From Pelosinus sp. UFO1 (GTDB lineage: Bacteria; Bacillota; Negativicutes; DSM-13327): DNA of 64,000 nucleotides. The stretch lies in assembly GCF_000725345.1 (NCBI RefSeq), contig NZ_CP008852.1, positions 3,092,001-3,156,000 on the forward strand. The letters are read 5' to 3'. The translations under genes were made by a program, and so were the position numbers. Shown here in pieces: positions 47,374-49,514 of the stretch. The notes beneath the pieces were generated by a model. That model made no database searches and was not told the DNA's origin. It saw nothing but the letters and a program-made list of their open reading frames with translations. Within the stretch, counting starts at the first letter, position 1, and the number at the start of each line of letters is the position of its first letter.

Positions 47374-48312
47374 TTAAAACAATGATGATTGCCTAATTTT
47401 TAGTGAATATGCCTCTCTGACTTTCATGATTTCGTCCCCACGAGGATGACCTACTAACATTGGTGAGTGAGGATCATGCAGATACATATTTTTTCGTATC
47501 ATGTGTTCGTTGGTAGTAGCATAACAATATACACAGCCATTGGAGCAGCAGTCATAGGCTCCAATATCAATACTTCTGATGCAGCCACAGACCGGCCGCT
47601 GATTAGGGTCTTTTTTCCCATGAATCGGATATCCTATGATATTCTCAATCAGATTTAGGTCAATACAAGATGCGTGATGAATACCATACTGACTTAGATC
47701 GATGGCCTCAGCACAGGTTTCTAGCAAGACATTGTATTTTTTCGCAATGTCAGAAAACCTCTGAGAAATTTTATTCATATCTATCGTGTTTACCTCAGAA
47801 CTCACAACATTTTTTGCATTTCGGAGGACCTGGGTGTATAGATCGACAAAACTAATAATGCACTTGTTTGTATAATCACCCAAGATATCAATCATTTTCC
47901 CAAAAGCATCAAGATGATACTGCACTGAAAACGTTTCATTGACGATTACTGGGTCATAGCGCCAAATCACACGTTGTTTTCCAATTTTATTACTTAATTG
48001 TTTAAAAGTTTCCATAATCTCCGTTTTCCTAGGCAGGCCTTTTTCTACTTTATGCCCATAGGGCGTAATCGTAAACTGAAAATAATATGGATACCCCATT
48101 TTATCAATGCTTTCTAACTTACTTAGCATTGGCTTGGGATTTTTGGTCCAGAATACAATACAATCAACCACATCATTGTTCAGCAATACACTTGTCATGC
48201 GATTTGGATTCTGCGGGTTTTTAACGTAGGCAAAACCTGCCTTTAGACGATTAATAAACCATTCCGAATAAAATGCTGGAATGTCCGTTCGTCTGCTAGC
48301 GCTTATAATCAT
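47374..48312 (-). CDS. DUF1848 family protein with C-terminal CX3CX2C motif
   Basis: A 312-residue protein of the DUF1848 family: it opens with MIISASRRTDIPAFYSEW, then FVYVKNPQNPN-type and FWTKNPKP segments and a TIM-barrel-like run (YYFQFTITPY, RVIWRYDPV). Near the C-terminus lie cysteines in PVCGCIRS and then CSNGCVYCYA, giving C256-x3-C260-x2-C263 with an aromatic residue before the last cysteine, which is the cluster pattern of radical SAM enzymes. Its function is undescribed. The start overlaps the adaA stop by 4 bases (ATGA), so the two are translationally coupled. Confidence 0.85.
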   Translation of the reverse strand: MIISASRRTDIPAFYSEWFINRLKAGFAYVKNPQNPNRMTSVLLNNDVVDCIVFWTKNPKPMLSKLESIDKMGYPYYFQFTITPYGHKVEKGLPRKTEIMETFKQLSNKIGKQRVIWRYDPVIVNETFSVQYHLDAFGKMIDILGDYTNKCIISFVDLYTQVLRNAKNVVSSEVNTIDMNKISQRFSDIAKKYNVLLETCAEAIDLSQYGIHHASCIDLNLIENIIGYPIHGKKDPNQRPVCGCIRSIDIGAYDCCSNGCVYCYATTNEHMIRKNMYLHDPHSPMLVGHPRGDEIMKVREAYSLKIRQSSLF

Positions 48313-48872
48313 TTCTTATCACCACTACTTTGCTTCCGGTATTTGCTCGGAGTAAGCTTGGCCTGTCTTTTGAAGAATTCATAGAAATTCGAGAGGCTAC
48401 CGAATCCACATAGTAATGCGATGTTTAATATATTGATATCCGTATTTATAAGCAAATACATGGCCTTTTGTACACGCAATTGATTCATGTATTCCGTAGG
48501 TGTCATATGAAATTGCTGACGAAACAAATAGATGAGATGATTTTGGCTAACACCTAACTCTTTTATTTCAACTGAAAGCTTCTCTCGATCAGCAAAATAG
48601 GTATCGAAAATATTTTTTGCTTTTTTAATTAGGACTAACATCGGATTAAACTCAATTAAATCCGGTCGGCATCTTTTGCAAGGCCGTAATCCATAGGAGT
48701 AAGCTTCTTCGATTCCGTCAAAAAACTCAACATTATTTATCTTAGGTTCTTTCGATTTACAGGATGGCCGGCAAAAGACGCCAGTTGTTTTCACACCGTA
48801 TAAGAACACACCATCATAGGAACTGTCGCAATGAACAACTGCATTCCACTTTTCCTCTTTGCTTAGTGCCAT
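48309..48872 (-). CDS. adaA: AdaA-like methylphosphotriester repair protein and transcription activator
   Basis: A 187-residue protein. The N-terminal Ada zinc domain has C34, C38, C65 and C68 (GVFCRPSC and RPCKRC); C34 is the expected methyl acceptor from DNA phosphotriesters. The C-terminal AraC-type double HTH follows (ELGVSQNHLIYLFRQQFHMTPTEYMNQLR and IALLCGFGSLSNFYEFFKRQ). When methylated it activates the adaptive response to alkylation. The ATG at 48872 is preferred over 48887. It lies 77 bases after ogt and overlaps the DUF1848 gene by 4 bases. Confidence 0.9.
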   Translation of the reverse strand: MALSKEEKWNAVVHCDSSYDGVFLYGVKTTGVFCRPSCKSKEPKINNVEFFDGIEEAYSYGLRPCKRCRPDLIEFNPMLVLIKKAKNIFDTYFADREKLSVEIKELGVSQNHLIYLFRQQFHMTPTEYMNQLRVQKAMYLLINTDINILNIALLCGFGSLSNFYEFFKRQAKLTPSKYRKQSSGDKK

Positions 48873-48949
48873 AATTATCACCGCCATACTTATAATGATA
48901 AATTTCAACGATAAAACGAAGCAATTGAACGTAAGAAAAAAATTTTATT

Positions 48950-49408
48950 CTACTGCTCCAACTTCAAAAGATGTTCTTTAACGTTGAGTCCTGCAGCATA
49001 TCCGACTAGTTTTCCATTTGCCCCTACTACACGATGGCACGGAATAAATATCAAAATAGGATTTTTGTTATTTGCCATACCTACTGCACGAGCAGCGTTC
49101 GGCTGACCAATCCGCTTTGCGACCTCTCCATAGCTTCGTATTTCACCACAAGGAATGTCTTGTAACGCTTTCCACACCTTTTGCTGAAATTCTGTACCTT
49201 CGGGAGCAAGAGGCAGTGCGAATGACCTACGCTTTCTTGCTAAATAATCATTTAGCTGCTGGCTGGCTTCCTTTATTAATGAGGTTTCCTTTACAGTAGC
49301 ATCTTGGAGGACGTTATCTTCTTTTAAAAAAACATTTGTAATTGCCTTTCCATCTTCCATAATCCCAATCTTACCAATGGTTGTTTGATAGAAAAATATA
49401 CTTTTCAT
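48950..49408 (-). CDS. ogt: Methylated-DNA-protein-cysteine methyltransferase
   Basis: A 152-residue suicide enzyme that takes the methyl group off O6-methylguanine. The active site IPCHRVVG has the acceptor C124, preceded by the DNA-binding RSYGEVAKRIGQPNAARAVGMANNKNP. The ATG at 49408 has GGGAGG 8 bases upstream. It is the first gene of the alkylation-repair cluster with adaA and the DUF1848 gene. Confidence 0.94.
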   Translation of the reverse strand: MKSIFFYQTTIGKIGIMEDGKAITNVFLKEDNVLQDATVKETSLIKEASQQLNDYLARKRRSFALPLAPEGTEFQQKVWKALQDIPCGEIRSYGEVAKRIGQPNAARAVGMANNKNPILIFIPCHRVVGANGKLVGYAAGLNVKEHLLKLEQ

Positions 49409-49514
49409 GGGTTTACCTCCCAAGCTCTTATCTGGTATTGCTTGCCTTTATTTTACGCTATAGAATAACTATTTGTCTTTCTAAATATCACTTTCTAATT
49501 CTTCGTAAGTTATT

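Follow-up and report, generated by a model that had tools for sequence, protein, structure and literature searches.

Spore photoproduct lyase (SPL) is a DNA-repair enzyme of the radical S-adenosylmethionine (SAM) type (PMC3742179). Its substrate, the spore photoproduct, is not an alkylation lesion. Here we analyse a 64,000-nucleotide stretch of the Pelosinus sp. UFO1 genome (contig NZ_CP008852.1, positions 3,092,001 to 3,156,000; hereafter the window), in which a gene for a DUF1848 protein follows the alkylation-response genes ogt and adaA. The protein is a full-length match to PF08902 (DUF1848), with all conserved residues of this family without assigned function, on which no paper was found in the literature searched. 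The Pfam text already likens the C-terminal cysteines of PF08902 to a radical-SAM cluster; new here are an apparent circular permutation, four further cysteines and a repair-linked group of DUF1848 genes.

Like SPL and the SplB-like proteins (PF20903; COG1533 type), DUF1848 combines a Cys loop with strands 3–5 bearing the motifs TK..P, F-T-x-T, E-x-x-x-P and DPI. Unlike SPL, it has these parts in swapped order, carries an extra four-cysteine site and leaves PF20903 unmatched; a separate true SPL is encoded elsewhere in the host genome (E = 7e-144). Its best structural matches are pyruvate formate-lyase (PFL)-activating enzyme, RlmN and MqnE (Z 9.0–9.6). In PFL-activating enzyme the Cys motif lies N-terminal to the rest of the barrel, as seen on the alignment, whereas DUF1848 begins at strand 2; RlmN and MqnE also carry the motif N-terminally. 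ThiC holds a radical-SAM-type cluster at its C-terminus, with another Cys spacing, and is not known to be a canonical barrel in rotated order. The literature searched gave no earlier report of a circularly permuted radical-SAM barrel; the permuted proteins in the papers examined are methyltransferases or lipoate ligases. The window protein also matches the PADLOC model RTasDUF1848 (PDLC03815, DRT-associated; E = 1.1e-52), and the reverse transcriptase partner was not found at the window locus.

Predicted fold and probable circular permutation of DUF1848

The AlphaFold2 (AF2) model of the window protein, built from 78 sequences, reached a mean predicted local distance difference test score (pLDDT) of 95.0 and a predicted template modelling score (pTM) of 0.92. 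In a second look with VIA-align, radical-SAM enzymes took all ten of the best rows (Z 9.6 to 7.8), including MqnE (Z 9.6, root mean square deviation (rmsd) 3.2, 190 residues aligned), RlmN (Z 9.2, rmsd 3.8, 182 aligned) and PFL-activating enzyme (Z 9.0, rmsd 2.7, 163 aligned). Row 11 was a fucosidase (Z 7.7), followed by further radical-SAM enzymes (anSME, Cfr, PqqE) mixed with other barrels. The predicted model has a (beta/alpha) barrel of the radical-SAM type, matched at moderate Z values. The register of the match is informative: the first residue of the model is paired with residue 71 of PFL-activating enzyme (8fo0, 3c8f, 3cb8), a chain with cysteines at 29, 33 and 36 and the GGE motif at 77–79 (counted on the alignment), so that the structural match begins at strand 2. 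Judging from the aligned range, the GGE loop would have its counterpart in the SRRTD near the N-terminus of DUF1848. The Cys motif does not stand in strand 1 ahead of the rest of the barrel; it lies after the strand-6 equivalent, in rotated order.

The same order emerged from sequence profiles. Upstream of DUF1848 at locus L029, separated by 27 bases, lies an unpermuted SplB-type radical-SAM gene (L029:5104-5970), which places the canonical and rotated forms side by side; its product matches PF04055 (E = 1.3e-14) and, weakly, PF08902 (62–116, E = 0.0052). Against a canonical SplB-like profile of 29 rows (this neighbour and 28 relatives), unrotated DUF1848 aligned in two parts of swapped order, residues 248–277 to positions 14–52 (P = 1.8e-7) and residues 52–125 to positions 101–177 (P = 1.1e-4), the former falling on the N-terminal Cys loop of the canonical family. 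After rotation both parts joined in a single path with a score of 69.9 (P = 3.1e-9), compared with 58.0 and 39.0 for the parts taken separately. Eight of the 17 cut points scanned, from residue 131 to 253, scored 69.9–70.1, while the other nine stayed at or below 58.0; 40 column shuffles gave at most 23.5 and the reversed alignment 18.7. The P values are approximate, since both profiles are shallow (effective number of sequences 3.7 and 5.0). An alignment to true SPL alone with hhalign recovered the same two parts (P ~2e-4 each), gained no score on rotation and was set aside as too weak.

Fold register and swapped homology agree, which places the opening of the chain between helix 1 and strand 2 and its closure through the four-cysteine stretch. 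DUF1848 thus looks like a circularly permuted radical-SAM barrel, and permutation would explain why its Cys motif is C-terminal. The fold prediction and the profile in rotated order both indicate that DUF1848 is homologous to radical-SAM/SplB-like proteins and does more than share a similar-looking motif. An earlier note on this DNA, made from the sequence alone, had likened DUF1848 to radical-SAM enzymes; the fold match and the rotated profile support this idea, in a permuted form that the note had not foreseen.

Several results weigh against this assignment. Models that lack a clear match usually reach Z values of 7–8 in their best row, and those of DUF1848 are moderate; Foldseek places dihydroorotate dehydrogenases first and PFL-activating enzyme at rank 14. 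With moderate Z values and Foldseek E-values favouring other barrels, the fold match alone would be only suggestive, and Foldseek by itself does not single out radical-SAM enzymes. The depth of both profiles counts on the same side, as do the family searches: the four DUF1848 proteins examined missed the PF04055 gathering score of 29.5 bits (at most 14.6 bits in native and 14.9 in rotated order), and none of them matched a Pfam radical-SAM family at cut-off, PF19238 reaching E = 0.0023 with the window protein and PF04055 E = 0.037 with one relative. Profile libraries in canonical order can miss permuted enzymes. The letters GGE are likewise absent from DUF1848, which has RRTD in the presumed place; SPL rows show SDP in what would be the matching region.

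PF20903 was not among the families listed for the four proteins, native or rotated, at E ≤ 10, a range in which HMMER filters drop most matches above 0.1, and no NCBIfam family matched DUF1848 at E ≤ 0.001. When solved structures were searched by sequence, neither the protein nor a 78-row profile found a convincing relative, the best being Bcs3 (E = 0.0023) over a stretch that lacks the conserved cysteines, and a search of the PDB with the canonical neighbour from L029 returned no radical-SAM enzyme.

A signature of seven cysteines

Conservation was assessed in 188 rows, made up of 81 proteins (the window and 80 loci), 100 loci from a sample of the phylum and seven from the family; the 100 phylum loci are the 94 strongest DUF1848 matches outside the window, G157 (at a contig end) being left out, and six weaker ones. 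The window protein has cysteines at 51, 151, 200, 216, 242, 244, 255, 256, 260 and 263. The earlier note was correct in describing C256-x3-C260-x2-C263, with a tyrosine (Y262) before the last cysteine, about 50 residues from the C-terminus; the motif ends 49 residues short of it. In 187 of the 188 rows C256, C260, Y262, C263 and Y264 are present, the remaining row having a gap there, and the motif is therefore more than a chance pattern. Within the 81-row set it occurs in 80, the exception being L051, a contig that ends before the motif.

The earlier note had overlooked four further cysteines, C200, C216, C242 and C244, each of which is invariant (188/188). Together with the three of the motif they make the DUF1848 signature one of seven cysteines, not three. 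In canonical order these four fall after strand 6, where the auxiliary clusters of other radical-SAM enzymes sit, and they probably form a second, auxiliary iron-sulphur (Fe-S) site of the [4Fe-4S] type. Other near-fixed positions are T9 (186 of 188), D10 (184), K57 (181), T81 (182), E90 (188), R118 (188), P121 (188) and Y159 (187); T9, D10, K57, T81 and E90 align with residues around the SAM site of SPL. Positions that set apart the repair-linked proteins described below were also examined and pointed to no active site.

Linkage to alkylation-repair genes

Repair linkage was scored by searches from a single seed for each of Ogt, AdaA, AlkD and helix-hairpin-helix (HhH) glycosylase, counting matches upstream of DUF1848 on the same strand within ~1.4 kb. 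Surveys of neighbours cover 181 loci, with L286, whose DUF1848 is 94% identical to the window copy, joining only in the 188-row counts. Ten of the 181 loci were linked, or 11 of 188 with L286, and five of the 100 in the phylum sample alone. Partner genes vary between families: ogt and adaA in the window and L286; ogt, HhH and adaA in L002; adaA and ogt in L003; ogt and alkD in L004; ogt, alkD and adaA in L005; alkD in L125, L130 and L163; HhH in L119; ogt in L126. All 11 linked DUF1848 genes lie downstream of their partners on the same strand, and the stop of adaA overlaps the start of DUF1848 in the window, L002 and L286. Of the 181 loci, just four (the window, L002, L003 and L005) matched the Ada metal domain itself, and other matches to the AdaA seed were taken as AraC-type regulators. 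An ogt 2.5 kb downstream of DUF1848 in L029 was left out of the count.

On the 188-row tree, all 11 linked rows fall within one group of 16 members (FastTree local support 99), while none of the 172 rows elsewhere is linked by the same criterion. The linkage label requires two changes on this tree compared with a shuffled mean of 10.8, and none of 500 shuffles was as low. By distance and in a 60-row tree, the five remaining members of the group are copies from the host genus (L280–L284). The 60-row tree, computed with a better model, recovered exactly the same 16 rows with a support of 46 only; the grouping of repair-linked DUF1848 is clear, the branch itself weakly supported.

The expectation of repair linkage beyond this genome was borne out. 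Four kinds of repair genes in several families accompany DUF1848; at the same time, linkage is restricted to one group (11 of 16 members), and in the host genus it is seen in three of eight genomes only. The other five host-genus genomes carry DUF1848 copies of 59–61% identity away from repair genes and have adaA elsewhere, which in three cases adjoins alkD. Two more close relatives, L309 (60% identity) and L325 (50%), lack all four seed genes within 1.5 kb upstream of DUF1848, and most DUF1848 genes have neighbours other than repair genes. A universal linkage, against which the unlinked host-genus copies, L309 and L325 speak, was accordingly dropped; the linkage is real, facultative and confined to one group. 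Among 394 genomes of Paenibacillaceae, the family of the L003 genome, DUF1848 occurs in 15, and ogt and adaA adjoin it in the L003 genome only (four seeds, 1.5 kb), L309 being among the copies without them. Two of six close matches in the family of G386 lie beside alkD, both being the loci L125 and L130 already counted.

AlkB (PF13532) was absent from all 15 genomes examined (10 linked and five unlinked; the L004 genome is outside this sample). Bacillus subtilis, among 14 controls, gave no match either, so that the absence is consistent rather than telling.

Proposed function and alternative explanations

The DUF1848 partners share a theme of nucleic-acid modification, repair and defence, which makes a radical reaction on nucleic acid the natural reading. 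We propose that DUF1848 is a permuted radical-SAM enzyme of SplB-like ancestry, which in the linked group acts on a nucleic-acid alkylation product and is made together with Ogt and AdaA, a proposal to which we give an even chance. The chain would start with strand 2 and run through strands 2–6 and the four-cysteine site to a strand-1 equivalent with the CX3CX2C loop. This loop would hold the SAM-binding [4Fe-4S] cluster that makes the 5'-deoxyadenosyl radical, and a second cluster at C200/C216/C242/C244 might transfer electrons. In the repair-linked group, the radical would attack something that alkylation damage leaves in nucleic acid, and the enzyme would appear with Ogt and AdaA when AdaA senses methyl damage. 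Its substrate would most likely be a lesion outside the reach of Ogt, AlkD and HhH glycosylases.

The absence of AlkB from the 15 genomes leaves a niche for a way of dealing with N-alkyl lesions without O2, and a more specific version of the proposal would make repair-linked DUF1848 an O2-independent radical-SAM counterpart of AlkB. The 5'-deoxyadenosyl radical would then abstract hydrogen from the methyl of an N-alkylated base (for example 1-methyladenine or 3-methylcytosine), whether in DNA or in RNA, and the auxiliary cluster would accept the electron. We regard this version as rather unlikely; if true, it would mean direct reversal of N-alkyl lesions without O2 by a naturally circularly permuted radical-SAM barrel.

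DUF1848 might instead be a radical-SAM enzyme that works alongside a methyltransferase in modifying RNA or a nucleotide, and in the adaA group be merely co-induced without acting on DNA lesions. A methyltransferase-fold protein is the commonest neighbour found (32 of 181 loci, with 21 open reading frames (ORFs) directly upstream), its model resembles class I methyltransferases including Bud23 (Z 15), and DUF1848 itself has two RNA-modifying enzymes, RlmN and Cfr, among its structural matches. The same neighbour is missing from all 10 repair-linked loci searched (L286 being outside this search), where four kinds of DNA-repair genes stand instead, and we consider this explanation possible if doubtful. 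That DUF1848 is a passenger, moving between genomes and landing behind repair genes without shared work, would fit its patchy occurrence (126 of 398 sampled phylum genomes, with many fragments), its relatives on plasmid and phage records and the five unlinked members of the host genus. We judge it unlikely, given that different repair genes in several families all lie upstream on the same strand (11/11) in one tree group, and that adaA and DUF1848 overlap in three loci. In a last alternative, the seven cysteines would hold zinc or clusters that serve only structure or electron transfer, with no SAM chemistry; sequence cannot tell the identity of a metal, and both the missing GGE letters and the PF04055 scores are in its favour. 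The CX3CX2C motif with an aromatic residue before its last cysteine, the radical-SAM-type barrel, the SplB-like homology and the conservation of T9, D10, K57, T81 and E90 make it very improbable.

For DUF1848 in the linked group, the best reading is a radical enzyme of nucleic acids that the alkylation response has recruited. It would turn a large family without function into a testable enzyme class, a rotated radical-SAM barrel probably with a second cluster. The place to seek its function is the alkylation response of bacteria without AlkB, where DUF1848 could reveal an O2-independent handling of alkylated nucleic acids.

Organisation of the ogt-adaA-DUF1848 locus

The three genes are transcribed from the minus strand in the order ogt, adaA, DUF1848 (Table 1). 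PF08902 covers residues 2–265 of the window protein, with 358.2 bits against a curated cut-off of 30.5 and positions 1–262 of the 262-position profile aligned. AdaA comprises PF02805 (Ada_Zn_binding, E = 1.3e-29) and PF12833 (E = 2.7e-24); its start was taken at the ATG common to relatives L002 and L286, the longest ORF beginning with TTG at 48908. Ogt matches PF01035 (E = 1e-34) and PF02870 (E = 1.3e-7), and carries PCHRV, the active-site motif of O6-methylguanine-DNA methyltransferases. The adaA stop and DUF1848 start share ATGA (48309–48312), and 77 bases (48873–48949) separate ogt from adaA; coordinates and Pfam matches agree with the gene row, overlap and gap given in the earlier note. 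The host genome (5.1 Mb, one contig) has a single DUF1848 match and a single Ada_Zn_binding match at E ≤ 0.001.

Table 1 Features of the ogt-adaA-DUF1848 locus (positions in the window).
Feature	Position	Strand	Description
DUF1848 gene	47374..48312	-	312 aa; PF08902 E 4.3e-107; AF2 pLDDT 95.0, pTM 0.92; radical-SAM structure and profile matches
C256-x3-C260-x2-C263 codons, with Y262	47524..47547	-	C-terminal motif of radical-SAM cluster type; kept in 187/188 relatives
C200, C216, C242, C244 codons	47581..47715	-	Proposed auxiliary Fe-S site; each Cys in 188/188
T56-K57-N58-P59 codons	48136..48147	-	Matches TKS of SplB-like radical-SAM proteins; K57 181/188
S6-R7-R8-T9-D10 codons	48283..48297	-	Predicted place of GGE loop after strand 2; T9 186, D10 184 of 188
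adaA	48309..48872	-	Ada metal-binding domain and AraC-type helix-turn-helix; alkylation-response regulator; start ATG at 48872
ogt	48950..49408	-	O6-methylguanine-DNA methyltransferase; start ATG; ORF reaches 49423
Conserved block upstream of ogt	49449..49503	-	Aligns with same region in two other host-genus genomes

The conserved block upstream of ogt is, speculatively, a candidate promoter or putative AdaA-binding region. It contains a promoter-like AAGACA-N18-TAAAAT (49479–49450), and such matches around the ogt region are at chance level (11 found, 10.3 expected). No terminator-like site was found in the locus region.

Other genomic contexts of DUF1848

Partial or broken DUF1848 matches occur in many genomes (e.g. 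G179, G020, G324), some next to intact copies, as for a gene that may often be lost or moved. Relatives of 31–51% identity are found on six plasmid and eight phage records (e.g. OY725880, NZ_LR882935, MT835780), two in each set being versions or twins of one.

An upstream neighbour on the same strand qualified for a Pfam scan at 123 of the 181 loci, and 117 of these genes were scanned, leaving out that of the window and five more on grounds of length. No family was dominant: among the first 25 of 131 families, EIIA-man, DNA_alkylation and GNAT had four each, SIR2 and Macro three each, and Ogt, Ada, DpnI_C and others two each. The class I methyltransferase-fold neighbour, Cys-rich and nearly invisible to Pfam (e.g. 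L020:31-918, L122:3969-4991, L007:4891-5832), accounted for 34 ORFs, those directly upstream being on the same strand; two other seeds returned 36 and 26 ORFs, much the same set, and a few ordinary methyltransferases may have entered the iterated profile. The model of this neighbour (pLDDT 77) matched, among tied rows, Bud23 and a chain from an assembly intermediate of the mitochondrial small subunit, and PADLOC names it C3a159 methyl transferase in three of six cases (L020, L122 and L043; not L007, L035 or L120).

At six loci, the same ORF matched both the methyltransferase-like and the reverse-transcriptase profiles. The ORFs immediately upstream of DUF1848 in L189 (2323-4971) and L198 (5837-8608) combine a methyltransferase-like domain with a reverse transcriptase, the one in L189 being UG25-like according to PADLOC (E = 9.5e-123); an apparent fusion protein in one locus proved to be an artefact of a masked run. 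A profile from two UG25/UG35-type reverse transcriptases matched eight ORFs in the 181 loci and none in the 14 kb around the window DUF1848, and a defence role of the window gene was dropped on this ground. The gene directly upstream of DUF1848 in L132 (4232-5005) appears Cas6-like by eye. In L048, L050, L056, L063 and L151, Zn-macrodomain and SirTM-type sirtuin genes both lie within two genes of DUF1848, which suggests a link to ADP-ribosylation.

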